In this document: piece after piece, positions 19,469 to 55,514 of the stretch
How positions within the stretch are numbered: the stretch's first letter is position 1
How the letters are laid out: each line of letters begins with the position of its first letter
DNA from: Gautieria morchelliformis
Lineage: Eukaryota; Basidiomycota; Agaricomycetes; Gomphales; Gomphaceae
Length of the DNA stretch: 64,000 bases
Reading direction: 5' to 3'
Assembly: GCA_015179125.1 (NCBI GenBank)
Contig: WHVA01000258.1
Location: 62,001-126,000, forward strand
Program-made: the position numbers and the translations under genes
The notes under the pieces: generated by a model
What the model was told of the DNA's origin: nothing
Databases searched by the model: none
The model's input: the letters and a program-made list of their open reading frames with translations, nothing else

Positions 19469-21461
19469 ATGTTGAGAAGCGGAGTTCAAAACCGTCGAGC
19501 CATGCATCCGACTCCCTCTACTTCAACGTCGCCGGCTCCATATCACCGCCTTACATCCGCAGCCCAGCAGCCAGATGGCCCCTCACCGTCCAAGCGCCGC
19601 AAGGTTGCCACTCCAGCACCAGCATCCAGCTCGTCCTCTTCCTTCCCCAACCGCTCTGGTTCTGGACCCACATCGGACTCACAGCTCGACCATGCACGCC
19701 GTGAGTCCTCCTCACGTCTATTGAGTGTATGGGCAGGGCTCGAGAACAAGTATACACGTGGGCTTGATGAAGACGATATTGTGAACATCGTCAGCGGCGG
19801 CTTCTACAAGAACCGTGGCGTGCTAAATGATAAAGCTGGAACATGGGACATCGGATGTTTTGCGGACCCAAAGGAGGCTCAGAACCTGGCACCGGAAGAA
19901 GATGACAAAGAAGATGAGATTGCGGGTGGGGGTTCGGACTCTGAGTTTGACCACCAGTTCAATCCTGTCCGCATTCCACCTGTGCATGAATGTGACCCCA
20001 AAGACGCGGAGGATCTTAGAGCCTTTTTGGCTGCAGAGCACGCTCGGAAAGCTTTACATGGGGCTGACGATGATTTTAGCGGAGATGAAGCTGGACTAAA
20101 TGACAACGGAGGTGATGACCTGCAACTTGATGCTGACACGGAAGAATCAGTCTTGGAGGTAGAAGCAGGAAGTGCACGCCTTTCCCCCACAGAGAGTGAC
20201 GACGATCTCGCTGGGTATGACGATACCGTTGGCGAGGGAGCTCTGCTCTGGGAAGTCTCATCAGAATTAAGCAATTGTTCAGAACCTCTGGGTGCAGAAA
20301 GTGGCATGGCATCCAAAAACCTCTATGCTCTTCCTCACCAACATCAGACCCCCACCCAGTTACGCACGCCTCCCCTCTCCCGTTCCTCAATGCGGCCACC
20401 CAATGTCCCGGACCTACCCAGGAAGTCACCACAACCCTTCCGCTCACCACAACCCTTCCGCCCACCCCTCAACTTGCCTCCACCCCCGTCCCCTATATCT
20501 CAGAAGACTTCCGCTCGGGTTTTCTCCTTGAAAAAACAGGCGTCAACTCAATGCTCGCCAGATAAAGCGACAAAGCCGGAAACTCCCATTTTGACTGACA
20601 AAGGAAAGGAAAGGGAAATGAGCTTGTCACCAACAAAGAATCTCGTGGCTGAAATAATGCTGCCCATGCGTCGTGCCGCCACTGTGGTTAAAGAGGGTGA
20701 GAAAACCAAGGTACGCTGTCATATATTTTTGGCTGATATTCCACCCAGGTGTTCATCTGTACACCCAGCTTGAAAATAACGACACGCTTTCGACGCCTGT
20801 GCATTCTGGTCAGGCTGTGTCTAGGTCGGCTCGTCAAAAGAAGACGTCCACCGGCCGAAAGCCATCCAAGCCTCAACTGTACACATCTTCGCCGTTGAAA
20901 GCTCCATACTCAAGTCCTATACCCACAGCTCCATACTCAAGTCCTACCCCCCTAGCTCCATACGCACATCCTGCCCCCCCAGCGCCTAGATTTCCAATAC
21001 CACACCCTGTGCTCCCCGACTTCAACCGCGAGTCCAGCATGACCCCGCATCCAGATGCACAGATCTACATCGCACAGGCGATTCAGAGTCTCAGTTACCT
21101 TGCCTTTGGCTCACCCCAGCCGCCGCCCATTGTGTCATCGTCCCGCCCCTCCCATGCTCAACAAGCATTTCCGTCCTCATCCCACCCGCCCTTGCAATGG
21201 CCGTACCCTCCACCTTATTATCCCCACCACCATCACAGTTACGCTTCTGGACCCCCTACATGGCCCTACCCACCATATACATACCATTACCCCCCCACGT
21301 CACACCCACCCCCTACAACATTGCCCTCCTCCCCAGCCACTCCTTCCAAGACTCTAATGTCTGGCAGCGAATCTCCCGCCTCGTCGCCTGGTTTCTCGTC
21401 GTCTCCTTCTGGGAAAGGCAAGGGGAAAAGAGTACAGTCGCGGACACGCAAAACCCGCTAG
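19469..21461 (+). CDS. Scm3/HJURP-like protein, intact copy
   Basis: Two exons (19469-20710 and 20769-21461; intron 20711-20768, 58 bases) give about 644 residues. Residues about 87-125 read RLLSVWAGLENKYTRGLDED and then DIVNIVSGG--KNRGVLND. This has the layout of the Scm3/HJURP core (W..L..KY...DEDDIV.L.TG....DRG.L), a histone chaperone domain that loads the centromeric H3 variant. I assign it on that pattern alone. The rest is acidic (20.0-20.2 kb), then Pro/Ser-rich, with a PYSSP/APY repeat near residue 460 and a KGKGKRVQSRTRKTR end that looks like a nuclear signal. A broken paralogue lies at 29400-30390 and 47617-48054. The two differ completely after the intron position. Confidence 0.6.
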
Positions 21462-28500: not shown

Positions 28501-29380
28501 TCCATTATGGGCTGTTCTTCGGCCACTATGGGCAGAAGCAGACGAGCCTCCTGCTGCTCTGTCGTTCTGTTTATAGTGACATGTTTTCCAGAAGAGAGTT
28601 GGGGTGACCCGTCCGACGCATGTTTTTGGGTACGAATATGCTCTGCGAACGACGTAGAAGGCAAAGATAGAACCTCCCCAAGTGGTCCACGAATTGGGCC
28701 TTGCAGTTTCACCGCGGACGTCGAAGATACATTTTCTGCAGAAATGACACCCTGCTGGTTGAACGATCGTGAAACAGGGTCAATGGGAAGATCATGGCTT
28801 TTGGCCTCATCAAGTTGTTTCAAGGCCCACTGCTTAAATCCTATCGCGTTTCGTCGCCTTTTTCGCTTGGGTTGGTCGACGACGTCGTCGACGTCGCTTT
28901 CAGAGGATTCTGGAAAAGTATGCGGACGCTCAGCGTCATTGGACAAGAAGCCAGTCGATTCTTCAGCGGAACGTTTCCTGTTGGTACCGGCCTTTCCTGA
29001 ACCAAGTGAGGAAGAGGGCTGAAGCTTTGTTGAATCTGAGAGGGCCTGTGACTTGCTAGACAGAATATAAGGCCTGTGGATAGAGAAATAATAATAATAC
29101 TGGACGCACGATAGCTTTTCAAAGAGAACCAAGCGCTCTTCTTTTTTGAGTTTTTTGTCCTACGTTAAAGTTCAACGTTGCAAAGTCAAAGTGTAGCCGC
29201 ATGCTCACAATGTACTTCTCCAGTCGCCGTGCTTTCTTGCTGTCTAACTTGGACTCGGAAGGCAAGGAAAGCTGTTGATAAGCTGTGAGGTAAATACAAT
29301 AGGACAGAGAAGAGAGTGCAATCACGTTCCTCACGGCGTATCCTCTCTCGCCTCTTGCTGTCTTTTGCTTCCCTCTTCAT
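25559..29380 (-). CDS. ECM16: DEAH-box RNA helicase Dhr1/DHX37
   Basis: A nucleolar helicase of small-subunit ribosome assembly that removes U3 snoRNA from pre-18S rRNA. Motifs in order are [20 protein letters not shown] (I, 28.45 kb), TQPRRVAA (Ia), VVDEAHERS (II, 28.1 kb), MSATL (III, 27.92 kb), [10 protein letters not shown] (IV), [20 protein letters not shown] (V) and [19 protein letters not shown] (VI, 26.95 kb). The N-terminus carries [12 protein letters not shown] and [17 protein letters not shown], and the C-terminus [13 protein letters not shown]; both are typical of this subfamily. An acidic insert (27.33-27.47 kb) separates motifs IV and V. About ten introns. The start at 29380 ([15 protein letters not shown]) is my choice; an in-frame ATG at 29437 lies inside duplicated DNA shared with the Scm3-like copy. 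Confidence 0.93.
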
Positions 29381-29536
29381 CGGCGGCTGAATTAGCGTGT
29401 GACAAACGTGACTCGAAGCGTCGAGCCACGCCACCACTTACTTCAAGGTCGTCTGGTTCTGGATCCACATCGGACCCCCGGCTCCTCACGTGTATTGAGC
29501 GTGTGGTCAACACTCGAGAACAAATATGCAAGGCAT

Positions 29537-29667
29537 AATAATGTCTCCTGGGAATGCAATTCTGTCTCCACCAAACAGCCGCCTGTCCTGAATATAACCC
29601 AGCCGTCTCAACCGGTGACACCAGGCTGTTTGGCAGAGACAGAATTGCATTCGCAGGAGACATTATT
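29537..29667. mobile_element. 131-base inverted-repeat (MITE-like) insertion
   Basis: The two arms, about 44 bases each, start AATAATGTCTCCTG and end CCAAACAGCC, and pair with only a few mismatches. The unit sits inside the conserved LENKYAR-RLDEDDIV codons of the Scm3-like paralogue. It is flanked by imperfect copies of about 15 bases (ACAAATATGCAAGGC before, ACAAATATACACAAAGGC after) rather than a short exact duplication. Confidence 0.75.
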
Positions 29668-30268
29668 TGTTTTTCCGACAAATATACACAAAGGCTTGAC
29701 GAGGATGACATTGTGGACTTGCACAGCGGCGGCTTCTACAAGGACCGTGGCGTACTAAATGATAAAGCTGGAGCATGGGACATCGGATGTTTTGCGGACT
29801 CAAAGGAGGCTCAGAACCTGGCGCTGGAAGAAGATGACGAAGAAGATGAGATTGGGGGGTCGGGTTCGGACTCTGAGTTTGACCACCAGTTCAATCCTGT
29901 CCACATTCCACCTGTGCGTGAACTTGACCCTGAAGACACGGAGGATCTTAGAGCCTTTTGGGCTGCAGAGCATGCTTGGAAAGATTTACATGGGGTTGAC
30001 GATGATTTTAGTGGAGATGAAGCTGGACTAAATGACAACGGAGGTGATGACCTGCAACTTGATGCTGACGTGGAAGAATCAGTCTTGGAGGTAGAAGCAG
30101 GAAGTGCGCACGTTCCTCCCACGGAGAGTGACGACAATCTCGCTGGGTATGATGATACCGTTGGTGGGGGAGCTCTGCTCTGGGAAGTCTCATCAGAGTT
30201 AAGCAATTGTTCAGAGCCTTTGGGCACAGAAGGTGCCATGGCATCCAAAACCTATACTGTTCCTTGCT

Positions 30269-30390
30269 GACATCAGACTCCCGCCCAGTTACGCACACCT
30301 CCCCCTTGCCGACATCAGACTCCTGCCCAGTTGCGCACACCTCCCCCTCGCCCATATCAGACTCCTGCCCAGTTATGCACACCTCCCCTC
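30269..30390. repeat. 42-base minisatellite, three units
   Basis: Three units of the form GACATCAGACTCCYGCCCAG plus TTRCGCACACCTCCCC and a short spacer. The intact gene at 20340-20380 has a single unit, so the array expanded in this copy. The last unit is cut by the solo LTR that begins at 30391. Confidence 0.85.
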
Positions 30391-30872
30391 TGTCAGAACC
30401 ATCCACACCAGGTGTAAGATCCCAATGTTGAAGACCCTGCACTAAGAAAGGGTAGGGTGCCTGTACTGGTTGGTTGAAGGGACTTTTCTCACGCTTACCA
30501 TCACCACCAAAACACCCAAAATCGCATTCCCTACGCACACGCTTGCTAAACTGCACGCCAGTGCATCGCTGACTACAGCCAGCGGCGAAACCGAGCTTCC
30601 CTGAAAAAGAAGCCGTTAAAACGATGCCACAAAGCGTCGAACCCCAGGCGCCTGCCACGTCACAAGCTCGCACAAGGGCAGGCGCCACACAACAAGCCAG
30701 CAACAAAACTAGGTCAGATTTGTTGTTGGAGCCAAACATGTCGGTCAGAACCAGAGAGCAAGCGAGGCAGTTCCTAGACAAACACGGGTACTACACGAAG
30801 GATGATCCGTTGTCGACAGAACAGCTAAGTTACGCTCTGTTATCACTTGCACACAACGTTAGTGGCAAAACC

Positions 30873-31808
30873 TTTTAGGAATAATATGTCAGATATATTA
30901 GAATGGATATATCTGGTGACTCAGGGAGTGGGGACTCTTCGTGCACCCCTTTGCAGGGTATATGCGCGAGCTGACTAAGCTCTGTGGGGCGAGTGCGTCA
31001 CTGATTGATGTAGGTCACGTGACTGAGTCGAGGAAGAAACAGGTGAGAACAGAGGAACAAGGGGTCCGAAGCTTTCGCTTTTGGAACAGTATAGTGTAAC
31101 CAGTTATAGTAGACTCTCAACAAAGAATTAGAGAAATCTATCAAGAACCAAGCTCTGTAGCTATCAAACAAGTCTACAGTTACTTCAGGAGGTGAAACAG
31201 TGAATTATGGATATTTCTGGATGATATTCTGGATGTTTTGTTCGTACATTTATGGTAGCTACTTATACTAAAATAGTAGTGAGTACCAGTGTTCAAGATA
31301 GTGAGTGAATGGGTCAGGATAATGTGGAAATGCTCCACAGGCTGCATACAGCTGTGGAGCAGGAACAATGATGGGGATACTTGTCCTACTGACAAGTATC
31401 TAAGCTGGGACCTTGGAGCAATGTACAAAGCCCCTTTCAACATGTAATACAGCTCGTAATCAGTGGAGCTGGTCAGGGGAATAGAATAGAAAAGAAATCA
31501 TGTGTGTCCTGTGCTGTGTGCCTACAGCAGCCTTGGCAAGGCATTTGCCATCTCTGTACCTCTCTCCTGAGGTAGCTATTCAGTACGTCCATAGATAGGG
31601 CAGTGTACTGTAATCTCCATCATGTCCGATGTCCCTGTATGGGTCTATTAGTCCCATAGCAATATTTCTTCTGACCAGGGCCCAGGTGCCTGCTTTCCAG
31701 GGTAGGCACTGTTACTGGTGCGTGGATTATTTCTCCAGATGTTAGCTCAGTTAGACGATTGTGTAGACCTTAGAATACTCTGTGATATAGCTATCTCATT
31801 TATTCTAA
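30873..31808. mobile_element. 936-base unclassified insertion in LINE ORF1
   Basis: Bounded by CAAAACC on both sides (30866-30872 and 31809-31815), and its removal restores the LINE reading frame. The ends show only weak inverted similarity (TTTTAGGAATAA versus TTAGAATAAA). There is no coding capacity. A 7- or 8-base duplication would suit an hAT-type non-autonomous element, but this is inference. Confidence 0.65.
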
Positions 31809-32045
31809 CAAAACCCTGCAGGAGGGAGTTCGGGCGGTGGCCATTCTAATGATGGAGGATGCCACGAGAGCAGCGGTCTCGCGACAAATCGAAAAGCACA
31901 TTGAAACGACCCTGGCCAAACTGGAAGCAGCCGCTGACAGGGCCAAAGAGGCGGCTGAGGTGGCAGAAGAAGCAACAGAAGGAGCCAGAAATGTCATTGA
32001 GCATTTGAACAGCATGGAAGGACAGAGGAACGGCAAGGGGAAAGC

Positions 32046-32553
32046 TGTCAGGGGACACCCTGTTTTCCATTTCCAGTTCCGACACCACACCCAGTTCCGA
32101 CACCACACCCAGTTCCGACACCATTTCCGACTCCGCTTCCAGTTCCGATTCCATCTCCGCCTCCGCTTTCGGAAATGATTCCGCTTCTGGGAGAACTTCC
32201 ACCAGTTCTGTTTGCCTTGCCAGTTCCACTCCAATTTCCGACTTCCACTCTCGGAACAGTGTCGGAAATCAAGCGACTCATGTAATAGGTGACATCAAGG
32301 GTCGATCAAGGGTCAGGGAGGTCAGGAGGATGCAGGGTTGATGGCGGGTGCCAAGTGTTGTCCCTGGCTGCGCAGCGTAGTATAATACGGGCTCGCTGAC
32401 ATTGGGGGTCCTTAGACTTTTCTCTTTGGATTTCCCCTTGTCAGGTGAGAATCCCCTCTCTTGTATACTCTGTTCATTTATACATACTTTGGATTTCCCC
32501 TTGTCAGTTGTGTGGTAGTGTGATCTCCACAACCAGCCAGGGTTGCCCTTACA
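32046..32553 (+). mobile_element. Solo LTR of the 55901-62055 Gypsy family
   Basis: Begins TGTCAGGGGACACC and ends GGTTGCCCTTACA with the duplication AAAGC (32041-32045 and 32554-32558). It is about 19 bases longer than the other copies because a unit containing CCACACCCAGTTCCGACA is repeated once more. Otherwise it is close to the copy at 2562-3050. Confidence 0.93.
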
Positions 32554-35500
32554 AAAGCAATGCAAGAGGGACGACATACGCAGCCGCATTGAAAGGTAAC
32601 GTCCCCTTGTCACACTTAAACAACCTGGCAAAAGCGAAAATGAAAGCGAGACAAATACTGATTGATGGAGACATGTCACGAGAACAGGACGAGCTAAGCA
32701 AGCTAACGGAACAGGAGCTGGTAGCGAAAGCTAACGAAGCAGTAAGCAACCTCGAGCCGGACCCAGAAAGAATAGACATAAGCTTCGTGGGAGCCAAGAA
32801 GCTAGCGAACGGGGGAGTAGTGCTGGACATGGAAACAGAGGAGGCGGCGAAATGGGTGCAGATGAACAAGAGGTCGTTTTTGAGCAAATTCAGCAGGATG
32901 GCCACGATAAAAGAAAGAACGCTATCAGTAATAGTGGAGTACGTGCCGCTGAACCACTCACCTGACGCCATGGCGGAGATGAGAAAGATCGAGAGGGACT
33001 CTAAACTCCCCGACGGATCCCTGCTCTCAACCCGGTGGATAAAGCCCGTCCACAGGAGGACGGCAGGACAGAGATCGGCACACATTATCGCCAAGTTCAC
33101 ATCCACAGAAGCAGCAAATCAAAGCATAAGAGACGGGATGATAATAGCAGGAAAGAGAACCTGGGCCAGGAGAATGAAAAAAGAACCACGAAGGTGCCTA
33201 AAATGTCAGCGATACAACGCTCGGCACATGGCAGCAGAGTGCAGTGGCAGAGCCACGTGTGGGACATGCGGAGAAGAGCACAGGACAGCCGAATGCCAGG
33301 AAGACGATCCCAGCAAATTCAAATGCACGAACTGCGACGCAAAAGGCCACGCGTCATGGGATAGGACATGCCCGGTATTCAGATCAGAATGCGCAGCGGC
33401 AGAAAAGAGCGATCCAGAACACACGTACAAATTCTTTCCCAACGATGACCCATGGACGTGGGAACAACACCAAGAGGCGGAGGAAACAGACGATGTGGGG
33501 GACCTCATAAAAAAACTCAGGGAACAGGAGGACAGGAGATGGAAAACGATGGAAATGGAAAGAAGGATGGCGAGACAAGCGGACAGCAGAAGCAGGGAGA
33601 GGCCCCAAGTGGAACCAGATAACTCACGATATAGAGGAAGGATTGAAAGCTGAGGAAACGCACGCGGGAGAGGAAGAGGTGCGAACCCAAGAGTCGGGCA
33701 CATGGACCAAGGGTGGCAGGACAGAGAACGGGGTGAAGGGCGACAAAGCAGACTGGATGACTACGGAATCGGGGTCAGCCGCGAGAGGACACAAACAGTA
33801 CAGCAAGATGGAAACAACAACAACACACACCAAGGATGAACGAAGAAAACCAACAAATGCGAAAATTGAGAATCAGACAACAGAACGTCAACAAATCGCT
33901 AACGGCAACAGTAGAAATGCTAGCTAAGTGCTCACCTGAAAAATATGATGTCCTTGCAATCCAAGAACCATATATTGACTTCCTAGGCAATGCTAGAGCC
34001 ATGCCAGACTGGTACTCGGTGTACCCCAGAACGCACTTCCACGGCAAAGAGACGCGAACGAGATCGATGATGCTGATAAGCAAAAGGATGGCGACGAGCG
34101 CATGGGGAGCAATCGATATGGGATCGCCAGATGTTATGGCAGTAAAGATTAAAACCAACATGGGTGACGTCCTGATAGTCAATTCATATGTGGACTGCGC
34201 CCATTCTAACAGTATAAGAGCCATACAGAAATATATGCAGCACAGAGCGGCAGAAGGGACCACGCAAGAAAGGGAGATAGAGGGCATGGTGCGGCTCGGG
34301 GATTTCAATAGGCACCACCCAGTGTGGGACGAGCTGCGCAACGCACACCTAGTCACCAGGGCAAATCTAGACGAGGCGCAAATACTCTTGGATGCAGTAG
34401 CAGATCACGGACTACACATGGCGCTACCTAAGGATGTACCCACGCTCAGATCGATGGCTACGGTGAATTACACGCGAACAGATAATGTCTTTGCATCGCC
34501 TTCAGTCATTGAAAACATGATTAGCTGTAGCACAGTGCCAGAAGATCTACCACCAAAAAGCGACCACATGCCCATAGACACCACGATCGACGTATCCGTC
34601 AAGGCAAGCATGCAACTGCTGAAGCCCAATTACAGACAGGTGGATTTGAGGGAATACAGAAAGATGCTCGAAGCTGAGTTAAAAGACAGGATTAGAGAGC
34701 CCGTACCACTCACTGCCCATCAGTTCCATCAAAGCTTATGAGAGTTGACAACGGCCATTCTGGATACCACAGAAGAACTAGTGCCAAAAAACAGACCATC
34801 GGTATACATGAAGTGATGGTGGTCCCTACAGCTGTCACGCACCAGAGCAGAGACCAGGCGGCTCGCCAGGAGATCGTATGTGCGAAGAGACGACCCGACA
34901 CACACAGCACACGAAGAACACAGAGCTGCTTGGAATCGCTACGCGGAAGACATACAGAGGTCAAAAAGAGAGCATTGGAAAGACTTCCTTGACGGTATAG
35001 ACCAGAATACGATATGGGCAGCTCACAGATACGCCTCAGCGGATGCGGGTGACGGGGGCCAGACGCGGGTACCGACGCTAGTGACAAAAAAGGCAAACGG
35101 CGCAAAGCTGATAGCAGAGACGAACGAACAAAAATCAGAACTGCTCTTCGACACCTTTTTCCCAAAGCCAGGAGAAGCGGTTGAACAAATACCGGAGGAC
35201 TATGAGTACCCCCCTCCGGAGTTCGAGTACCAGCCAATCTCAGATGAGCAGATCAGGAGAGCCGTAGACAAGCTCAACCGGTTCAAGGCGCCGGGAGAAA
35301 ATGGTATCCCCAATGAACTCATAAAGCAGTGTATTGATATCCTTCTACCATACATAGGGCCTCTTTTCCACGCAACTTTCGACCTCAAGGTATATCCGGC
35401 AGAGTGGAGGGATTCAATAACAAAGGTCCTCCGTAAACCAGGCAAGGCAGATTACATGGCCCCAGGTGCCTACCGGCCAATCGCACTTCTGGACACGATG

Positions 35501-36725
35501 GGAAAAGTGTTGTCCGCGTGTGTGGCGGAAGATCTGGTAAAGATGATGGAAAAACACCAATTGTTACCCGACAATCACTTTGGATGCAGACCTGGAAGAA
35601 CGACAACCGACACCGTACATTACGTGGTGTCAGAGGTGAAGGATGTGTGGAGGAGAGGAAACGTACTCGGAGTGCTGTACCTGGACATCAAGGGAGCGTT
35701 TCCAAGCATAGTGCTAGACCGGCTGGCCCACAACATGCGAAGAAGGGGAGTACCACGGGAATACACTGATTGGATACGCAGGAAAGTCAAGAACAGGCTT
35801 ACCACGGTGAGCTTTGATGACTATTTCTCTGCGACCAGACCCATCGGGAGAGGAATGGATCAAGGTTGTCCGCTATCGGCAATTGCTTATCAGTTCTATA
35901 ACAGTGATCTGATTGACGTAGTGCGGCACAACAACGGAGAAGCGAGCGTAGGATTCATGGATGATACAACCATAATAGCCGAAGGTCCGGACCTCAAGGA
36001 GGCGTTCAGTAAGCTATCGGACGTAATGGTTAGACCAGATGGGGTGAACAACTGGGCGGAAAAACACCACTGCCAGTTCGCGGTGGAAAAGTTCGGTTTG
36101 ATGGGACTCACCAGATGCAGAGAAAAAGACCCTTCCAAGCCGGGCAAAACCAGGCCGGTGGTGAGACCGTCGATAAGAATAGGGCAGCATGTCATAAATC
36201 CACAACAGTGCACAAGTTCTTGGGGGTGATAATGGACCAAGAACTGGGATTCAGGGAGCACGTCAACTACGCGCTGAAGAAAGGAGAGGCGTACATAAGC
36301 CAGTACAGAAGGCTGGCAAAACCGTCCAAGGGAATAATAGCTAAGTACATGAGGACGTACTACATGACGGTGGCAGTCCTGAGAATGTTGTACGCAGCTG
36401 ACGTCTTCCTAGTTCCAGAGACGGCCACAAGCAAGGGAACCAAGGGATTTATTAATAAGCTCGGGAGAATTCAGAGGCGAGCGGCAATAGACATTACGGG
36501 AGCCCTTGTGACAACGGCCAATGACACCCTCAATTCACACGTGAACCTCCTCCCCTTCCCGCTGATGGTATCCAAAATAGTGCACAGAGCGGCGGTACGA
36601 CTGGCGTGCCTCCCCCAGAGCCATCTGCTCACGAAAAAAGTGAGGAAAGCAGCAAAAAGATATGTAAAACGACACAGATCTCCCCTTCATGAGATAATGC
36701 ACGCTTTTAGTCTACAGCCAGATGC

Positions 36726-37418
36726 TGTTACGACCGTTCATTTCCGACTTCCGACCCTCAGTTCCGCCATACATTCCGCCTCTCCAATAGTTCCGCCACA
36801 CGTTCCGCCCCTCCGACATTTCCGACATTCCGCCCCTTGTACATTTCCCTTGTTCTTTCGACGCTATTACTCGGACCCACCGGACCCACCTCGCCATCCA
36901 TCAAAACCATATATCCGGTCACCCTTGTAGTTTGTTGTCAGATATGTTTTCCCGACCCCTTGTTCTTTGCCATTGTTCTACCTTACCCTGAACCCCCCTT
37001 GTAGTCCCATTGTTCCCAATTAGTTAGTTCCCACACATTGTACTCGACTTCCGCTTCCTCCGGAATTTGCTTAGTACAACACCATTACTTGTTGCTCTGC
37101 GCTTTGTATAAAAACCCCCTCATGTATGTCTGTTATTCTGCAATCAGATAATCACCTTCGATACTTGATTTCCTTCGCTCCATCTCCTGTTCTTAGCACA
37201 GCGAGTCTAGCAAGATCTCAGTCTCTCTCTCAGCCTTCCGTCTTCCGCTTTCCGCCTCAGTTCCGACTCAAGTTCCGACCAAACCTCTGGTCCAGTACTT
37301 TCCGACTTCCGGCTCATTTCCGAAATACCTAGGACGATAGTTCATTGGGGGCGCAACCTATAAGTTGAAGCCGCTGTCCTTTCCAGTTCCGACTTAGTGG
37401 AAATCACGATACGTAACA
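36726..37418 (+). repeat. 5' LTR of the young Gypsy
   Basis: 693 bases. By my count TTCCG occurs 18 times on the plus strand. TATA-like GTATAAAAAC lies near 37108 and is followed by GTCTGTTATTCTGCAATCAG, a likely transcription start region. Confidence 0.93.
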
Positions 37419-40400
37419 GTATTATCTGATTCCCACCCGATAACTATCACTATGCCTCCTCGTACCACAGCTACTTCAGCTCGAGCAGGAGCTGTCGAAG
37501 CTCTCTCTTATTTTGGCAGTCTTAGATCCGCAGCACCAAGGCACGCGGAACCCTCCAGCAGCTCTCGTGCCGACGATGAGCTTTCCGATGCTTTTCCGCA
37601 ACGATTCGAAGAAGTTCCCGACGCTAATCCCGACGAAAATCCCGACTACGACGGGAATTCAACGAGTAGCAGCGGCGAACAAACAGCAGCGTCATTCCGA
37701 CGCCCAGCTCCACCACCACCACCTCCACCAGGACCACCTCCAGGCGGCCCTCCAGGCGGCCCTCCAGGCGGCCCTCATGGCGGCCCACCCGGCGGTCCCC
37801 CAGGCGGTCCTCCCGGCGGTCCTCCACCTCCAATTCCACCTCAGATTCCCGCCAACCCAGTTCCGCCCGCACCAGTTCCGGATCTTGCACAAGCCATCGC
37901 CATGCTAGCCGGACAACTCCAGCGCCCGGCCCAAGCACCACCACGCCCCAAGACAAAGGTCCGCGAACCAGATCAGTTCGACGGTTCCGACCCCAAGAAG
38001 CTCCAGCCATTTCTGGTTCAGCTTCAACTCAATTTCCGTGATCGTCCCGACGCCTTTCCCGACGACGAACGAAAGGTCAATTATGCCCTTTCCTATCTCC
38101 GAGGCACGGCGCTCGACTATTTCGAACCCGCCCTCATGGATCCGTTCGCTCTCGTCGACTGGGCCGACGATTACCCCAATTTCATTTCCGAACTCCGCAG
38201 CAACTTCGGACCATTTGATATGGAAGCCGATGCGGAAAACGAACTCGATAAGCTTCGCATGAAAGACACTCATAAGATAGCTAAATATATCGTCACGTTT
38301 CAGCAGCTCGCTCCTCGAGTCCAATGGGGAGAAGCCGCACTCCGACGCCAGTTTTACATGGGCTTGCCATCCCGCATCAAGGATGAAATTGCCCGCGTCG
38401 GAAAACCCGCCACCCTTACCGACCTCCGCAACCTCGCCCAATCCATCGATTCGCGCTACTGGGAAAGACACTCCGAGATTGCTCGTGAAACCTCCGCCCA
38501 GAGCAAGAACGACAAGTCTTCCGACAAGAAGTCTGATAAAGACAAGAAGAAGACCAATTCCGGAAACACCAACTCCGGAAACAACAACAACAACAGTTCC
38601 GGATCCAACTCCGGCAACCGGAACAACAACAACACCCCTCGGAACAACCAGGCCTCTGGTTCTAACACCAATGCCCGGAAGAGCACCCCGGATCTTTCCG
38701 ACAAACTTGGGAAGGACGGAAAACTAACCCCTGTAGAACGCCAGCGTCGCATGGACAACAACCTTTGCCTCTTCTGCGGCAAAGGAGGTCACGTCGCTCG
38801 CGACTGCACTCGCGCTTCCGCCTCCGCTGCTAAGGCCAAGGGCCGCGCAGCAAAGACGGAAGAGAAATCCGAAGCGGTTCCCGCTGCGGATTCAAAAAAA
38901 TAGTCAGCAGTCCTCTGGCCTCCGCACGAGCTGAGGGCTGTGTTGACCCCATTCGTGCGACAAACGAGGTTAAACTCAACGCATCCGCTCTTTCGTCCTC
39001 CGACTCTCTCTCTGTTCCGCTCACTTCCGACACCATTTCCGCACCCCCGTTTACAGCATTGGTCGACTCCGGTTCGACTCATTGTTTCCTCGATTCCGAC
39101 TTTGTTTTGAAACATAAACTTCCGACCCGCAACATTCCGACTATTCCGCTCCGCCTTTTCGACGGGTCTTCCAACACGGGAATTTCCCAAGTTGTGGATC
39201 TGTCTATCCGTTTCGCTACTGGGGACAACCATGAAGTTACGTTTTACGTTACTCCGCTAGATGCTAGCTGTTCCGTTGTACTAGGACACAATTGGCTCAC
39301 CCGATATAATCCGTCGATTAACTGGGCATTGGGTCAAATACAGTTCCGTACCCCGGATCAACTTCCGTCTATTCCGACGTCGTCTGCAAAGATGGCTCAG
39401 GCCTCTTCTGCAACTCCGCTCGTGGATTCAGTTCCGCACTCCGGTCCCGCTTTAGCACCTCCGCCCCTCGAAGCCCCCGAATTGCGCTCGTTTCCGCCAC
39501 CGCTTTCCGCGTATTGCAACGGCAAGATGATATGACCGTTTTCCAGCTTCACCTCTCCGATTCGGCTTCAGTCAAGGCTCGTTCCGCCTCGACTTCCGCT
39601 CCGGTCGACATGAGCTCAGTTCCGGAAGAATATCGTGACTTCCCGGACGTGTTCAATAAGGCCAAAGCCGACAAACCTGCTGAACATCGACCTTACGACT
39701 TGAAGATAGATTGGAAGAAGGAGCATCTCCGCCCCTTGGACCGATCTACTCTCTTTCGCAAAGTGAACTCCTAACTCTCCGAGAGTTCGTCGATGAACAT
39801 CTCAACATGGGCTTTATCCGCCCTTCGCTGTCTCCGCACGGCGCTCCGGTCCTCTTCGTCAAGAAGAAGGATGGATCTCTCCGCCTCTGCGTCGATTTCC
39901 GCGGACTCAATGCCCTCACTAAAAAGGACAAATATCCGCTTCCGCGCATTTCCGACTTACTCGACACTCCCCGCAGGGCGAAGATCTACACCAAAATTGA
40001 CCTCCGGCACGCTTATCACCTTGTCCGCATCCGGGAAGGTGACGAGTGGAAAACCACCTTCCGCACCCGCTACGGTGCCTTTGAGTGGACTGTCATGCCT
40101 TTTGGTCTAACCAACGCTCCCGCCGCTTTTCAGCGATTCATGAACGACGTATTTTCCGACCTCCTCGACGTATGCATTCTAGTCTACATTGACGACATCC
40201 TCATCTATTCCGACACACCGGAAAAACATCGGGAACATGTCCGCGAAGTACTCCGCTGTCTCCGCAAACATCATCTCTACGCAAAAGCAGAGAAATGCGA
40301 ATGGCATCGCGACACGGTCGAATACCTCGGCTACATCCTCTCTCCAACAGGTCTTACCATGGCAGAGGACAAGGTCAAGGCAATTCAAGAATGGCCGGAA

Positions 40401-42734
40401 CCCCGACGTGTTAAGGAAGTGCAGTCTTTCCTTGGCTTTGCCAACTTTTACCGGCGTTTCATTTATAATTTTTCCGACATTACTGTTCCGCTCACGCGTC
40501 TCACCAGGAAGGGTGCCCCATGGAATTTCACACCGGAATGCCGTTCCGCATTTGAAGCTCTCAAATCGGCCTTCACCACGGCTCCCATACTCGGTTTCTG
40601 GATTCCTGATGCCCAACTTGTACTCGAAACCGACGCTTCTGACTACGCGCTAGCCGCCATTCTTTCCATCATTTCACCCGACGACGGAGAAATTCATCCG
40701 ATCGCCTTTCATTCCCGCACCTTTTCCGCCCCGGAACTCAACTACGACGTCCACGATAAGGAACTACTTGCGATTTTCGAAGCCTTCAAAATCTGGAGAC
40801 ATTACCTCGAAGGTCCAACTTATCCGATCGACGTTGTAACGGATCATAAGAACCTTGAGTATTTTGCAACCACTAAGATTTTGACTCGCCGTCAAGTCCG
40901 CTGGTCTGAATACCTCTCACAGTTCAACATGGTGATCCGTTTCCGCCCCGGAAAGCTCGGAGCAAAACCCGACGCGCTCACTAGACGTTGGGACGTCTAC
41001 CCAAAAGAGGGAAGTAGCGACTATGCCAGCGTTAATCCGCACAATTTCCGCCCAGTATTCTCCACTGAGCAACTGGCATCGTCCCTGCGTGCCACAGCAT
41101 TGCAGTTTCCGCTACTCCGCGCCTCAATTATTATGGACACCGAGTCTCTCCATTCCGACATCTGTTCCGCACTCCGTTCCGACCCCACCTCCGCAACCCA
41201 CCTCGATGACCCCACCAGTCCTGGATGGTCCCTCGATTCCGACGGATTTCTCCGGTACAAGTCCCGGATTTACGTTCCGGACACCAACGATCTACGACTT
41301 CGCGTGCTCCAGCAAAGCCACGATCATCCGCTCTCAGGACACCAAGGCCAGAACAAGACCCTCGACATAATCCGACGTACCTATACTTGGCCTCTCCTCC
41401 GCACGATGGTTCAAGACTACTGCAAGTCATGCACCACCTGTATGCGAGCCAAGCCTCAACGTCACAAACCCTACGGCCTCCTGAAGCAACTTCCGATCCC
41501 GGAACAACCGTGGAATTCAATATCCATGGATTTCATTGAGAAACTTCCTAAGTCATCCGGCTATGATACCATTCTAGTGATCGTTGACCGCCTCACAAAG
41601 CAGTCCATCTTTATTCCGACCTACGACACCATAACTTCCGCCCAGCTCGCACAGCTCTTTGTGCTCCACGTCTTTTCCAAGCACGGAATACCTTCCCATG
41701 TCACTTCCGACCGTGGATCCGAATTTGTGTCCTCCTTTTTCCGCACACTCGGCAAGGCTCTCGACATGAAACTCCACTTCACCTCCGGTTATCACCCCGA
41801 AGGAGACGGACAGACGGAACGTACTAATCAGACCCTTGAGCAGTATCTCCGCGTCTATTGCAACTACCAACATAGCAATTGGTCCGACCGTCTTCCGCTC
41901 GCGGAATTTGCCTACAACAACGCGCCTTCCGCTACCACCGGAATTTCACCCTTTTACGCCAACAAGGGCTACCACCCGAATCTCGCCATCCACCCTGAAC
42001 GCGACCTCGCCTCTGCAAGAGCCCGAGATTTCGTTGTGGAACTTGACGACCTTCACCAGCACCTCCGAGAGAACATTACCGCTGCCCAGAAGAGATACCA
42101 AACTTCCGCCGATCGGAAACGCCTTCCGCAACCGGCATTCGAGATAGGCGACAAAGTCTTTGTCAAAGCGGAAAACTTCCGCACCACTCGCCCCTCGAAG
42201 AAGCTCTCTGAGAAATACCTCGGTCCTTACGAGATCATCGCTAAGGCCGGCAGTCGTTCTTTCACCCTCAGACTTCCTGACAATATGCGCGCAGTACATC
42301 CGGTATTCCATGTCTCCATGCTTGAACCCGCAGTTCCGAATACAATTCCAAATCGAGAACAACCTCCGCCTCCGCCAGTCGTCATCAACGGAGAACCGGA
42401 ATATGAGATTTCGGAAATTCTCAACTCTAAGCTCGACAGACGATACCGCTGCCAACTCCAGTACCTAGTCAAGTGGGCAGGCTATGAAAACACCGACGAA
42501 GAGACCTCGTGGATTTCCGCCACGGAACTTGACCATGCCTCTGACCTCGTCTCTGATTTCCACAAGTCATATCCTGACAAGCCTGGCCCCATTTCCGCGC
42601 CCTAGTCAATTCCGACCTCTTTTCCGATTCCTATTGCTTTCTTACAAGTTTCAAGTTATTATTCAAATCCGAATTACTATTCCGCTACACTAATTTCCGA
42701 CGCTCCAAGAAGTATTTACAAAGTCATCTCGACT

Positions 42735-43971
42735 TCACTCCTCCCTCATCGTTTCCGCCTCTTCCTCGTTCTCCGCTTCCGCACCCTCTTCCGCATGCCC
42801 CATCGGCACACTCACCAGCTCTGTCTCCACCCTCATTCCCGCCTCATTCTCCTGCTCCTCTCGCAACCCCAGTTGGTCCCGGAACAAATCGTTCCGCCAC
42901 CGGAACTCCCGCTTCAGCTGCTCCAAAACTGTTGACATTACAGTCATCTGATTTTGGAATGACAACACTTGGTGTTGTTGAACCTCTGCCATTTCCAGCA
43001 AAATGTTCCGGATCCCGCGCTGCGTTTTCCGGATCCCCCTCAAGGACTCGGCGATATCGAGTAGGGGCGACGCCATGGTGAAGTGGTTTAACACCGCTGT
43101 TTCCGACTGCCCGGTCACCGGAAAGCCTTCCGCGCCCTTTTTCCCGCTCGACCTTGGTTTTGACTTTGGGGTTTCTGGCCCCTCGGTCTCGACTTTCCGC
43201 CTTTTCCGCTCCACCCTCGCGGAACAACCGTCCACGACGCACCGCCTCTTCTTGTCACGGCACCGATCGCAAGCGGTTTCCCGCGGATTTTCCGACCAAA
43301 TACACTCAAGCCCCTTCACCTCGCATGTGTCGCAGGGCGCCTTTTCTTCTTCCCCGTCCCTTGTCTTCCGTTTCCGGGTCGCGGGATTCTCCGGCCCCAA
43401 CTCCCGGAGGTCGACAATGCGGGCCATCTTGTTCTTCCTGGCCTGTTGAAATTCGTCCGCCCTCCTTTTCCGATCCGCCACAAGGTTCACAACAGGAACT
43501 ACTTCCTGCTGTTTTCCCTTCCCTTCAGGAGACGGTGTGTTCTCCGCCGTGTCTTCCGACTCCGGTTCGGAATCGGATTCGACGATTATTTTCTGCCAAG
43601 TTTCTTTAGTCAGTCTCGGGATGAGACTCAGAACCTTTCCGACTCACCCGGGATTGTTCCGTTTTCTCCGCCACGGCCTTGTTTCCCGCAGCCTTTTTGG
43701 CCGCATCCCGTTTCCGCTGTTCTTCACGGACGCGCGATTCCTCCTCGCGACGTTTGCGGTCACGCTCCTCCTTCTCTTTCCGCTCCCGTTCCAGACGCTC
43801 CTGTTCCTTGCGCTCTTTCTCTTTGCGCTCCTCCTCCAGACGCTCTTTCTCCTTCCGCGCCGCTTCCTCGGCCTCGCGCTTTTCGGCCAACTCCTTTTGC
43901 GCGAGCATGTCAGCAAAGTGTTCTTTCATCTCAGCACTGGTCATTTTGGAGAAGTCGACTGGAGTGCTCAT
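42735..43971 (-). CDS. Antisense accessory gene of the young Gypsy: coiled-coil plus zinc-cluster protein
   Basis: Two long minus-strand frames lie between pol and the 3' LTR, opposite to the element's own genes. The first (from 43971) starts MSTPVDFSKMTSAEMKEHFA and becomes an Arg/Glu/Lys coiled coil of about 90 residues. The second ends at 42735 and holds a Cys-rich module near 43.25-43.31 kb (CDTCEVKGLEC, then CDRCRDKKRRCVVDGC), followed by a basic region, a helical segment (LLDIAESLRGIRKTQRGIRN) and an acidic tail. The two are separated by about 60 bases with GTGAGT, a CTGAC branch-like site and CAG, so they look like exons of one spliced gene. Neither frame shows decay. The function is unknown; the Cys module resembles DNA-binding zinc clusters but is not a standard Zn2Cys6 domain. 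Confidence 0.7.
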
Positions 43972-44093
43972 GATGGACTAAACAGAAGACGCGTCTTGCT
44001 TCCCGCCTATCTTTCAAACTCCGATGCATTTGTTCACAGGTCACGTGATTCCGACTTGTGGTCTCGCGGGGCTCGACCTTAGAAGGGAGATAC

Positions 44094-44786
44094 TGTTACG
44101 ACCGTTCATTTCCGACTTCCGACCCTCAGTTCCGCCATACATTCCGCCTCTCCAATAGTTCCGCCACACGTTCCGCCCCTCCGACATTTCCGACATTCCG
44201 CCCCTTGTACATTTCCCTTGTTCTTTCGACGCTATTACTCGGACCCACCGGACCCACCTCGCCATCCATCAAAACCATATATCCGGTCACCCTTGTAGTT
44301 TGTTGTCAGATATGTTTTCCCGACCCCTTGTTCTTTGCCATTGTTCTACCTTACCCTGAACCCCCCTTGTAGTCCCATTGTTCCCAATTAGTTAGTTCCC
44401 ACACATTGTACTCGACTTCCGCTTCCTCCGGAATTTGCTTAGTACAACACCATTACTTGTTGCTCTGCGCTTTGTATAAAAACCCCCTCATGTATGTCTG
44501 TTATTCTGCAATCAGATAATCACCTTCGATACTTGATTTCCTTCGCTCCATCTCCTGTTCTTAGCACAGCGAGTCTAGCAAGATCTCAGTCTCTCTCTCA
44601 GCCTTCCGTCTTCCGCTTTCCGCCTCAGTTCCGACTCAAGTTCCGACCAAACCTCTGGTCCAGTACTTTCCGACTTCCGGCTCATTTCCGAAATACCTAG
44701 GACGATAGTTCATTGGGGGCGCAACCTATAAGTTGAAGCCGCTGTCCTTTCCAGTTCCGACTTAGTGGAAATCACGATACGTAACA
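44094..44786 (+). repeat. 3' LTR of the young Gypsy
   Basis: 693 bases, indistinguishable by eye from the 5' LTR at 36726-37418. Confidence 0.93.
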
Positions 44787-46287
44787 GATGCAATGGAAAA
44801 AATACAAACAGTGGTGTTTGGACCGAAGTGGACGCCGGCCTTCGGCGTGAGGATTCCCCCCAACAAAGAACAAGCGAAGAATGAGATGAACGAGCATGAG
44901 GCTGGGATCACGGTGTATACTGACGGGTCAAGCATAAACGGGGGAGTGGGGGCAGCGGCAGTGCTATTTAGGAACGGGGGAGAGAGGAAGACGGCGAGGC
45001 TCCACCTGGGCCCAGAAAGTGAGCATACTGTGTTTGAGGCGGAGCTGGCAGCGGCGGTGATGGGAGCAAGGATGCTGAACAATGAGAGGGGGGGGAGGTA
45101 CACAATAGCAATGGATAGCCAGGCCGCCATCCAAGCCACTCGACAGGAACGAGCCATACCAGGACAATACATGGTAAACGCTCTACACAGGCAGATACAG
45201 GGAGTGGTGGAGCAACAATCAGGAGCCGAAGTGCTTGTGAGATGGGTTCCAGGGCACGAAGGGGTGGAAGGGAACGAGAGAGCCGACAAGGAGGCGAAAA
45301 GAGTGGTGGAAGGAGGGAATAGCGGCGCGTGGTACATACCAACCCAGTGTCGAGGGAAGCTACCAGTGAGCAGAGCGGCAGAGATCCAAAGGCACAATGC
45401 GAAGCTAAGCCGGGAAGCGAAGGAAAAATTTGCTAAGTCTCCCAGAGCGGTTTACGCGCACGAGATTGACCCCACGATGCTGTCAGCAGCGTTCTCGAAG
45501 ATCACAAGAAATATGCCGCGCAAACAAGCGAGTCTGCTGGTACAACTGAGAACAGGACATATCGCGCTCAATAAACACCTACACAAGATTGGGAAGACAG
45601 CTTCACCCCTGTGCCCAGCGTGCAAGAGCGCCCCAGAGACAGTACACCATTTCCTATTCCGCTGCCCAGCCTACAGAGAGCAAAGAGGGAGGCTAGAGAG
45701 AAAACTTAAGAGAGGAGCCAAGTCAGTCAAGACGTTACTGGGAGGACACAAGGCGATGGAACACCTGTTCAGGTACATACACGACACCAAGCGATTCGAG
45801 GAGCAATATGGGGACGTATCGATGTCGTCAGGAAAAGCAGGAGCAGGCAAAAGATAAAAGAACGGGCAGAATAGACATGAGGAGAGAACCATACACCCCG
45901 CCCACATAGGCAAGGACACACTTGAGGCTACGCCCAATGAGATCAAGCAGAGAAAGAGGTCGAAAGGAGGGAAGGAACGGTCACAAGAAGGAAAATGTAT
46001 ACTTCGTCTTACATAGGGTACAGCCCCAAAAGACGTAAAATTGGATGAAAAAAAAAAAAAAAAAAAGGTTGGTTGAAAGAGATAAGAAGAAGGACAAGTT
46101 TGAAGTAGGCAAGCCTCGAAGTAAGAGATTGAGAGAAGAGATGATAGAGTGAGCAAGGTATCCTCAAGTGCTTAAGGGCATAGGAGATGGTGTAACATAT
46201 ACAATAACCAAACTAGCGAAATACATGGAACAAGCTCTGGTATTTATCTGCTTTGGAAAAGAGGGATGAGTCAGAAGACAATAGGAG

Positions 46288-46825
46288 TGTAAGAACCCAG
46301 CCTTTGGCCAGTTACTTACCGGTATAACTTTCTTCTGAGCCCGAGCCTTGTGATACTCGTGCCCGAGTACATATGATTCTTATCCTGCGCCCGAGCTAGA
46401 GCTCATATCCAACCTTGATCCCATGCCCGTATCCCCTTAGTTACTGATTCTGCTCCATCACGCATCATTCATATATTACCTCGCCCTGACCTCGCCCTGA
46501 TCTCCACTAATATGTTTGCCCCTGACTCGTACCCTCGCCCCATATATAAACCCTCCTGTATGCATTCCTACTCCTCAGTCTGAAAATCAACTATCGTATA
46601 ACTTCGATCCCTAGCTAGTTTCTAAGCCTCGCCTCTTAAGCCAAACCTCGCCTCTTATTCGTTTGCCTCCGAAGTTGGGACTCGTGCGTAGGGTCAGCGC
46701 AGCACATAAGCTGAAGCCTAGTCCCTCTCCAACTTCCCCATCCAAACCTCGCCCCGTAACCTCGGACCGTACCTTGGGTTTCGCTCCCGACCTCGGTCAA
46801 CCTTATGACGGATCGTATCGTAACA
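46288..46825 (+). mobile_element. Solo LTR, third family
   Basis: 538 bases starting TGTAAGAACCCAGCC and ending GGATCGTATCGTAACA, with the perfect duplication AGGAG (46283-46287 and 46826-46830). A TATA-like CATATATAAACCC lies near 46541. It is C/T-rich with repeated GCCCGAG and CTCGCC blocks. It is inserted in the 1.08 kb solo LTR. I see no other copy of this family in the window, although its last bases resemble the end of the 36726 LTR. Confidence 0.9.
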
Positions 46826-46843
46826 AGGAGGGACAAGTCACTG

Positions 46844-47059
46844 TGAGTCAGAATGAGTCAGAGTGAGTCAGGTGAGTATGAGAAGGAGTCAGAACAACAA
46901 GAGGGATGAGTCAGAACGAGTCAGAGTGAGTCAGGACAATAAAGCTGATATGGTACACAATAGGGGAACTGAGTCATAACGAATCAATGAAAACAAGAAG
47001 AGTGAGTCATGAGGAATACTGGTAAACCATGAGTGACTCATAGAGACAATAATGAGTCA
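46844..47059. promoter_or_regulatory. Cluster of TGASTCA (Gcn4/AP-1 type) sites
   Basis: Nine perfect TGAGTCA or TGACTCA heptamers start at 46844, 46854, 46864, 46907, 46927, 46970, 47003, 47034 and 47053; one more lies at 46267, on the other side of the later LTR insertion. The first few are spaced 10 bases apart (GAGTCAGAAT units), so the array grew by short tandem duplication. TGASTCA is the binding site of Gcn4/Cpc1 and related bZIP factors. All sites fall within the 1.08 kb solo LTR. Confidence 0.7.
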
Positions 47060-47616
47060 TCCTAACCCCTGAGCCAACCAACAATCTGGAACCACACATC
47101 TCTGCTCCAGACACATAGCCTCTGAGGCAATGCTTGACTTTCCAAGTCAATCGAAGGGGGTGGTGTAGGGTTAGGTGGTTGAGGGGGTTGGAAATGATCG
47201 AAACAATATGGGTCATAGCTGGTGCTAACCCCACTTTCCAATATCTGAATCTCTACACTTCTCTTGCCCTCATGCACAAAGGGAATATAGTGCATAGGCA
47301 TGTCAACTCATTCTGAGGAAGGGTCAAAGAAGAGTCCATGGGGATCAAGGCTTCCCCAATCCATGCTGTTGGCACTCATCCTGCCAGATTGTCGCCTGGT
47401 GTGGACCAGTGATGGTGCCTGAATGCTTGGTGACATCTGCATAGGGAATGATGATGTAGGTGCACCTGTGGGAGTGGCAGTGAAGTACATGGCACTGGAG
47501 GTGATGGCTCAACTTGGGGTATGAAGATGTGATGGTAGCGGTCTGATGAGATGATTGGGGGAAAATATTCCGTGTAGGCACTCAGTGCAGTTGGTGAAAT
47601 AAACCGGTTCATGACA

Positions 47617-48054
47617 CCCTCTCCCATTCCTCAATGCGGCTGCCCAATGTCCTGGACCTACCCAGGAAGTCCTTCCACCCACCCCTCAACTTTCCTCCAC
47701 CACCACCCCCTATATCTCAGAGAAGACTTCAGCCCAGGTTCCCCCCATGAAGAAACAGGTGTCGAGTCAAGGCTTCATTTCAACTGCCAAAGGAAAGGAA
47801 AGGGAAATGAGCTTGTCACCAACAAAAACCTCATGGCTGAAATAATGCTGCCCATGTGTTGTGCCAGCACTGTTGTTACAGAGGTTGAGAAAATTGTGGA
47901 GCTCCTGGAGGAAGTGCATGCAGAGGAACCTGAGGAGGAGAGGAAGGCATGCCATGCGCTTCTTGAGGAGACGCATCGTGTGAATGACCAGCAGCACCGT
48001 GTCCTGGAACAGCAGGAGAGGACAAATGCAGCCCTTCTGGATATATTTCGGTGA
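47617..48054 (+). pseudogene. Scm3/HJURP-like paralogue, 3' part
   Basis: Continues the gene piece at 29400-30390. Early sequence matches 20370-20700 of the intact copy (CCTCAATGCGG, GGACCTACCCAGGAAG, the KGKGNELVTNKN-type block and AEIMLPM). After that point it differs: instead of the intron and Pro-rich exon it runs on into IVELLEEVHAEEPEEERKAC and a coiled coil ending TNAALLDIFR. So one of the two copies has exchanged its 3' end. Confidence 0.75.
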
Positions 48055-54059: not shown

Positions 54060-54758
54060 GCCTCAAAGCTCTAGATAGATATCTAGGGCCTCGAGGTCCT
54101 TACACGATGACATGGGCTCCCATGTCACATCTCCTAGAGTCCACCTGATTTGGAACTCTATGTCCTTTGAGTTTATCCATCGGTGGGATAAGATCTCATT
54201 GACCAGCCACTCTTCCTTGTCATTCGCTCCAAAGTCATAAAATGACTTTGCTTCCTGATGAGGGAATAGGTCATCATTATTCGCTTCATACCGTCGTATG
54301 AGGTTGGTATGAAATGTTGGCGTGATGTGTTGGTTTTTTAATTCCTCTGGTAATTTGAGGATTACCATTGAGGTGTCATTGTGGGCCTCCTTCACACGAT
54401 ATGGTCCAATATATTGTGGTACTAGCTTCCTGGCCCTTCCTTTTGGCAGGGTCAGGTTCTGGGTCAGCAGGTATATGTGGTCTCCCACCGCATATATGTC
54501 CCCTTCACGACGTTTCTTATTTGTGTGAAACATCTGTGACACGTGATGCTCTATGATTGTGTCGTGCACTGCCATCAGGTTCCATCGAGCCTGATGTGTG
54601 AATTTCGTCACTCCCTTGAAGGGAGTGTCCGTAGTCATTGGTAGGTCAATCCGCAGCATATATCCGTGGTTCAGCTTGAAGGGTGCAAACCCTGTCATTG
54701 AGCTGACGTTGCTGTTTAAGGCAACTTTGACCATTGGGCACTTGTTGGCCCACACTAG

Positions 54759-55514
54759 AGGCATATAAAAATTTTCTGGTCTGAAAAACTGTTCAAAAAA
54801 CTGTAAAGATATTCCAAATTTTTTTAGTGTTTTTACAGCGCTTTGCAGTACATAAGGCAGGTGCTGATTTTGCGCGTGTTTTAGCTGCAATACTTAAAAC
54901 AGCCATAACTCAGGTAATACTGCTCCGATTGGTTTGAAATTTTGTATATAGCTTTATGTAGAGCATAGGCAGGGCACAGAGTAATAACCTCACTAAAAAT
55001 CAAGCAATTTGAAAGTCCCAATTTTTGTGTGAATTTCAAAGTGGATGACTTTGCTGGATATTATTGCTCTGTGCCCTGCATATGATCTACATAAAGCTAT
55101 ATACAAAATGTTGAAGAAATCAGAGCAGTATTCCCTGAGTTATCGCTGTTTTAAGTCTTGCAGCTAAAGCATGCGCAAAATCAGTGCCTGCCTTACATAC
55201 TGCAAAGCGCTGTAATGTAAAAAAACTTTTGTGTTTTTGTTAGAATTTGTTGAGCAAGAAAATTGTAAAAAAGTTTAAAGTTTTTTGCAGGGTTTTTTAT
55301 GTCTTTTTATAAGTTTCTTTGTGAAAACACAAAGAAACCCATAAAAAACACTGAAAAAAACTTTGAATTTTTTTACAATTTTCTTGCTCAACAAATTCTA
55401 ATAAAAACACAAAATTTTATTATAGTTCTTTTTCTATAAAAACACTAAAAATATTTGGAAAATCTTTACAGTTTTTTTCAACAGTTTTTCAGACAAGAAA
55501 ACTTTTATATGCCT
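54759..55514. mobile_element. Foldback element with three nested palindromes
   Basis: The outer arms of about 76 bases (54759-54834 and about 55437-55514) start AGGCATATAAAA and pair with few mismatches. Between them lie two further palindromes: 54835-55213 with arms of about 153 bases (ACAGCGCTTTGCAGTA outward) and about 55224-55418 with arms of about 90 bases around ACACAAAGAAACCCA. The unit is very AT-rich, has no coding capacity and interrupts the integrase of the old Gypsy. No clear target duplication is visible. Confidence 0.88.

Follow-up and report, generated by a model that had tools for sequence, protein, structure and literature searches.

Nested transposable elements in a decayed Scm3-like gene copy of a fungal-looking genome

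The window analysed here is a stretch of 64,000 nucleotides from contig WHVA01000258.1 of Gautieria morchelliformis (positions 62,001 to 126,000 of the forward strand). Between positions 29364 and 47903 of this window, a decayed copy of a gene with an Scm3 domain is interrupted by transposable elements, some of which sit inside others. The gene copy contains a small palindromic element and, separately, a large element with ends resembling those of long terminal repeats (LTRs); the latter holds a long interspersed nuclear element (LINE) and a probable solo LTR, and the LINE holds three further inserts, including a full-length Ty3/Gypsy chromovirus. With a probability of roughly 0.93, we consider the region to be an ordinary cluster of nested transposable elements; the genome looks fungal from its gene and element types. 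The insertions number seven in total, counting the palindromic element, which was missed by an earlier note on this DNA. The features are listed below, and most of the elements are designated by their target duplications.

19469..21461, + strand: intact Scm3-domain gene (PF10384, gene model), with the empty site for the outermost insertion
29364..30390, + strand: left part of the decayed Scm3 copy (self-BLAST, alignment)
29531..29677, no strand assigned: palindromic (foldback or miniature inverted-repeat transposable element-like) element of 147 bases, not in the intact copy
30391..47616, no strand assigned: outermost element, a putative solo LTR, with CCCTC duplication and ends TGTCAGAACC...GGTTCATGACA
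30479..46066, + strand: LINE with poly-A tail and 11-bp duplication GGTTGGTTGAA, encoding endonuclease, reverse transcriptase (RT) and RNase H
30873..31808, no strand assigned: 936-base insert in the LINE, with 7-bp CAAAACC duplication
32046..32553, + strand: solo LTR in the LINE, with AAAGC duplication, of the same family as 2562-3050 and the LTRs of 55901-62055
36726..44786, + strand: full-length Ty3/Gypsy chromovirus in the LINE, with GATGC duplication and a pair of 693-base LTRs
42735..43971, - strand: antisense reading frame of 393 codons in the Gypsy element, between pol and the 3' LTR
46288..46825, + strand: probable solo LTR in the outermost element, with AGGAG duplication and compositional edges
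47617..47903, + strand: continuation of the decayed Scm3 copy to the right of the nest, from the duplicated CCCTC onward

Target duplications and the order of insertion

The insertion sites were first found via the duplication strings given in the earlier note, and each boundary was then tested by script. As that note had stated, every boundary carries its exact duplication: CCCTC (5 bp), GGTTGGTTGAA (11 bp), AGGAG (5 bp), CAAAACC (7 bp), AAAGC (5 bp) and GATGC (5 bp) all lie flush with the element ends (six of the six claimed insertions). Because the sites were located from the note's own strings, the duplications by themselves show only that the structures exist as described; the case that the insertions exceed chance comes from the independent support for the element ends that is presented below for the individual elements. 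Duplications of 5 bp result from staggered cuts made by integrases and longer ones, here 11 bp, from the target-primed reverse transcription of LINEs.

In the supported order, the gene copy precedes the CCCTC element, which precedes both the LINE and the AGGAG LTR; the LINE, in turn, precedes the CAAAACC insert, the AAAGC LTR and the Gypsy element. This is the nesting order read in the earlier note, whose further claims of five layers and a complete chronology went too far. The actual depth is three insertion levels within the gene, and the order is partial, since sibling insertions are not ordered by nesting: the three elements inside the LINE have no mutual nesting order, and neither do the AGGAG LTR and the LINE or the palindrome and the CCCTC element.

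A history compatible with this order would begin with a second Scm3-like gene copy that lost its start region and was then invaded by the small palindromic element and the LTR-like element. The latter would next have been hit by the LINE and, independently, by the AGGAG element, which is probably now a solo LTR. Three further elements would have entered the LINE later, the full chromovirus being the most clearly recent, and every integration would have duplicated a few target bases. We infer that the gene copy decayed in this order.

The decayed gene copy and its empty site

The intact Scm3 gene yields a PF10384 match with E=4e-8 (33.3 bits against the curated cut-off of 24.3). Its predicted product of 644 amino acids includes one 58-nt intron (20711-20768), with the acceptor picked as the one giving the longest product of the three tried (463, 644 and 629 amino acids). 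A single CCCTC at 20373 in this gene is the paralogous, uninterrupted target of the outermost insertion. The decayed copy matches the intact gene across the junction at 18 of 20 bases when 10 are compared on each side, at 36 of 40 with 20 on each side and at 69 of 80 with 40; the near-match reported in the earlier note is evident, its count of all but one base being a little generous.

Self-BLAST aligns the decayed and intact copies with 89% identity over 29678-30304. The right part is 72% identical to the intact copy, gaps included, over 47617-47893, where the BLAST match ends, and similarity has faded by about 47903, near where the intron of the intact gene begins. The decayed copy does not contain the segment that carries the intact start codon, its PF10384 remnant scores 21.0 bits (under the cut-off of 24.3), and a 42-base unit is repeated three times in tandem in its left part. 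Across 188 codons of the two copies, NG86 gives a nonsynonymous divergence (dN) of 0.085 and a synonymous divergence (dS) of 0.177, and YN00 gives 0.108 and 0.102, respectively; because these two estimates disagree, they support neither a date nor a dN/dS claim for the gene copies. The changes are distributed over the three codon positions as 20, 15 and 20. The comparison of the two copies suggests weak or absent constraint.

Beyond the region of likeness, from 47904 to 48054, the decayed copy goes on in an open frame unlike the 3' end of the intact gene, so that the duplication is either chimeric or has a breakpoint there.

The palindromic element in the left part is flanked by ACAAATATGCA and ACAAATATACA, which match at 10 of 11 bases and thus form an imperfect 11-bp duplication, 8 bp of which are exact. 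The intact gene holds one corresponding site, ACAAGTATACA, at 19746.

The outermost element

Net of its inserts, the CCCTC element amounts to 1084 bases, and its ends are fixed by the empty site in the intact Scm3 paralog. We infer that this element and the CAAAACC insert are solo LTRs produced by LTR-LTR recombination. Alternatively, the CCCTC element, and perhaps the CAAAACC insert too, could be a non-autonomous DNA transposon with terminal inverted repeats, in which case the order would be the same and the families and mechanism would differ. Taken as inverted repeats, the CCCTC ends agree, allowing one gap, at 10 of 11 positions (TGTCA-GAACC / TGTCATGAACC; p 0.047 relative to random positions), and two antisense stretches of the element, both in one frame, stay open for 66 and 81 codons, the shorter without a Pfam match and the longer matching only PRIMA1 (18.8 bits against a cut-off of 38.6). 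However, the inverted ends of the proven LTR elements in this region are similarly strong (p 0.0035 for the Gypsy element and 0.012 for the AAAGC LTR), and a 5-bp duplication combined with TG...CA ends suits LTR elements better. Given the inverted repeat at its ends, the DNA-transposon alternative is kept here as an unlikely one that still deserves consideration.

It is also conceivable that recombination, rather than direct transposition, placed some of the inserts; the LINE, for example, could have entered one LTR of a complete outer element and then been carried into the solo LTR. Solo LTRs do form by LTR-LTR recombination, and the data leave its timing relative to the LINE free. Nevertheless, this route would leave the insertion order unchanged, with the outer element before the LINE, and would need an extra coincidence in the position of the crossover; we regard it as improbable.

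When the three pieces of the CCCTC element are joined, TGAGTCA/TGACTCA heptamers occur 10 times in the 1084 bases, compared to 21 times in the whole window. We take this heptamer to be an AP-1/Gcn4-type site.

The LINE and its smaller inserts

The LINE, 6066 bases net of its inserts, encodes in order PF14529 (5.2e-10), RVT_1 (1.4e-23) and RNase_H (4.3e-15). It combines the features of LINEs, namely an endonuclease with a non-LTR RT, a poly-A tail and a target duplication of the variable-length kind. The 11-mer GGTTGGTTGAA has two copies on the + strand of the window and none on the other strand, and the second copy directly follows the poly-A run. As in the earlier note, by which the LINE frames continue across two of the three inserts, the reading frame picks up again after the CAAAACC insert and after the Gypsy element. 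Its closest known counterparts are Tad1/I-type LINEs, which the LINE resembles in the succession of endonuclease, RT and RNase H, in the poly-A tail, in the long target duplication and in a cysteine-knuckle pattern discerned by eye in the first frame, a frame without a Pfam match. The present copy departs from them in that stops, a frame change and three insertions disrupt it. A scan of a viral contig collection with the RT frame of the LINE returned two pattern matches and no relative.

The 936-base CAAAACC insert may instead be a putative solo LTR of 938 bases (30873-31810) flanked by the 5-bp duplication AAACC, in which case the additional CA would be a coincidence. If the insert is 2 bases longer, its right end reads CTAACA; its left end is TTTTAGG rather than the TG expected of an LTR. 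Only the frame resumption and imperfect inverted ends (p 0.0135) give its boundaries independent support, the inverted ends also favouring the longer reading.

Three further copies in the window define where the AAAGC LTR starts and stops: one solo LTR at 2562-3050 (ATGAC duplication) and the LTR pair of the element at 55901-62055 (GGCAG duplication). The family is thus represented in the window by three separate insertions, each with its own 5-bp duplication. The AAAGC LTR differs from the copy at 2562-3050 at 18 of 489 positions and from the LTRs of 55901-62055 at 15 of 490 and 19 of 489, distances that do not date the AAAGC insertion itself. The occurrence of the same sequence as the paired LTRs of a full element identifies the AAAGC insert as a solo LTR. 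The element at 55901-62055 (- strand) is a second full Gypsy chromovirus, and its own LTRs differ at 4 of 489 positions.

The Gypsy chromovirus

The Gypsy element in the LINE has paired LTRs with TG...CA ends and the 5-bp GATGC duplication on both sides. Its Pfam domains follow the order gag, protease, RT, RNase H, integrase and C-terminal chromodomain (Chromo 2.7e-7). The two LTRs are identical (693/693), which places a 95% upper bound of about 0.0043 per site on their divergence (rule of three); this is the best-dated layer of the nest. Eleven nucleotides of the LTR past a TATA-like box (37142-37152) are complementary to a stretch after the 5' LTR (37419-37440), a self-priming-like match of a length reached by 4 of 500 random 22-mers; the full element at 55901-62055 has such a match of 10 nt, given without a null.

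In its gag, protease, RT, RNase H, integrase, chromodomain and 5-bp duplication, the element resembles the fungal Tf1/sushi chromoviruses. The self-priming-like match also fits the self-priming reported for Tf1/sushi elements (PMC6317226, PMC4600332). Unlike those elements, it has an antisense frame between pol and the 3' LTR. A scan of genome contigs with the RT-integrase frame yielded five pattern matches; a single relative emerged, with 45% identity, and its contig is filed under an Erythrobacter metagenome-assembled genome. The presence of such a pol there probably reflects eukaryotic contamination, and the relative is too distant to supply empty sites.

Weighing the evidence

Several observations weigh against the nest as read above. 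The CCCTC element, the LINE, the CAAAACC insert and the AGGAG LTR have no second copy in the window by self-comparison, so that their labels as LTRs are putative, as is the assumption that the CCCTC element runs on across the LINE. The LINE frame fails to resume across the AAAGC LTR, which probably reflects decay; further stops and a frame change, separate from the inserts, interrupt the LINE coding frame. The pol of the Gypsy element is interrupted, with the protease (38834-39532) and RT-integrase (39684-42602) in different frames and stops between them, unlike the uninterrupted pol of an autonomous copy. Since pol is not one frame despite the identical LTRs, a sequence error is possible. The same pairing of identical LTRs with a split pol would fit a nest that is in part an assembly artefact, in which repeats were collapsed or misjoined and false junctions arose. 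Misassembly, however, is not expected to yield flush duplications at six of six sites, and the gene and LINE sequences resume across the joins; such an artefact appears very improbable.

The remaining points concern the AGGAG element, a probable solo LTR and, on its ends alone, the weakest LTR-type layer of the nest. Six pairs of TGT...ACA ends lying 300-1500 bases apart with a flush 5-bp duplication were found in this region, and 100 Markov sequences gave 4.44 on average (maximum 11); this combination was ruled out as proof of an LTR because chance yields about as many. The assignment of the AGGAG LTR therefore rests on its sharp compositional edges. The purine content falls from 0.68 to 0.38 on entering the element and returns to 0.69 beyond it, with a log-likelihood gain of 47.3 at the claimed ends and a maximum of 7.1 in 20 shuffles (coarser grid). 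The best purine change points lie at 46296 and about 46806 (gain 50.8), 8 and 19 bases inside the claimed ends. The inverted ends are no better than chance (p 0.667), and the likeness to the Gypsy LTR is below the threshold of z > 4; by eye, the two LTRs align from the TATA-like box onward. When six LTR-type pieces were compared in both orientations, only the AAAGC and Gypsy LTRs exceeded z 4 (z 4.8).

Among the five LTR-type inserts named in the earlier note or proposed here, a second LTR copy backs two, the AAAGC LTR and the Gypsy element, for which the label given in that note stands. The label is probable for the AGGAG element, and the CCCTC element is LTR-like by its ends only. The same applies to the CAAAACC insert, which the earlier note had not termed an LTR.

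An antisense frame inside the Gypsy element

The antisense intron-bearing frame is a more unusual detail than the nest itself. It comprises 393 codons over one predicted 55-nt intron (43593-43647), with an N-terminus that, by eye, is charged and coiled-coil-like. The longest unspliced Met-started frame in this stretch is 230 codons on the antisense strand and 153 on the sense strand. None of 200 order-2 Markov sequences of the stretch reached 393 codons, the longest frame being 191. One point counts against an antisense gene: stop-to-stop openings on the sense strand here also extend to as many as 269 codons (43164-43973), so that openness by itself does not establish a gene. Pfam comparison up to E 10 gave a single match, to a fungal Zn(2)-Cys(6) cluster and below threshold (E 0.0034 with the exon 2 frame; with the spliced product, E 0.0059 and 17.1 bits, where the cut-off is 21). 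In the viral contig collection, the frame holding exon 2 had two pattern matches and no relative.

Tentatively, and with somewhat less than even odds, this young chromovirus might carry an intact antisense accessory gene with a spliceosomal intron. The encoded protein, with its coiled-coil-like N-terminus and DNA-binding-like cysteine cluster, might act on the expression or targeting of the element and would correspond, in a fungus, to the antisense genes that Retand elements carry in plants. On the same reading, the intron would survive retrotransposition because the genomic RNA is the other strand.

Antisense additional open reading frames (ORFs) between pol and the 3' LTR are described for plant LTR retrotransposons (PMC11963269, PMC7264820). 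The frame reported here is like those of plant Retand, Grande and RIRE2 in its antisense position between pol and the 3' LTR. It differs in having a predicted intron and in belonging to a chromodomain element, Retand being described as a non-chromovirus. It matches no Pfam family above the cut-off, a comparison that did not include TRP28 itself. For chromodomain elements, one figure legend mentions an extra ORF without a known function or a stated orientation (PMC2864245). A fungal intron-bearing antisense case is not named in the titles or abstract openings of the papers listed in literature searches, which does not prove its absence.

Comparison with known nested clusters

Comparable stacks of elements are ordinary in repeat-rich DNA. 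Deriving insertion order from nesting and bounding ages by an LTR pair in the nest is standard practice (REANNOTATE, PMC2672092), nesting is common in LTR retrotransposons (PMC6911290), and complex fungal elements formed by multiple insertions at one locus have been mentioned (PMC3248453). The claim of the earlier note that such a nest is rare is not supported by two of these sources, in which nested clusters with resolvable order are called common in eukaryotes and have dedicated software (PMC2672092, PMC6911290). Since order from nesting is standard and nesting is common, the present cluster is a well-preserved case of a known phenomenon.

Nested LTR clusters, best studied in plants, share with this one the elements inside elements, the order given by nesting and the dating by an LTR pair (PMC2672092, PMC6911290). 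Unlike the plant clusters, the present nest lies in a fungal-looking genome, has a LINE as the main host, and has as its outermost target a duplicated gene with the empty site nearby.

Elsewhere in the window, 54753-55520 contains long self-complementary stretches (about 82-90%) that lie partly over a Gypsy remnant frame and extend into A+T-rich DNA.

Implications

The nest is chiefly of value as a clean, checkable annotation case: it combines seven insertions with an internal clock for one layer and, within the window itself, the paralogous empty site. The antisense gene, if conserved across copies of the chromovirus, would be the more useful outcome. As for the gene itself, the region suggests a decayed duplicate of a centromere-assembly gene serving as a landing pad for repeats, as would be expected once the copy was free of constraint.

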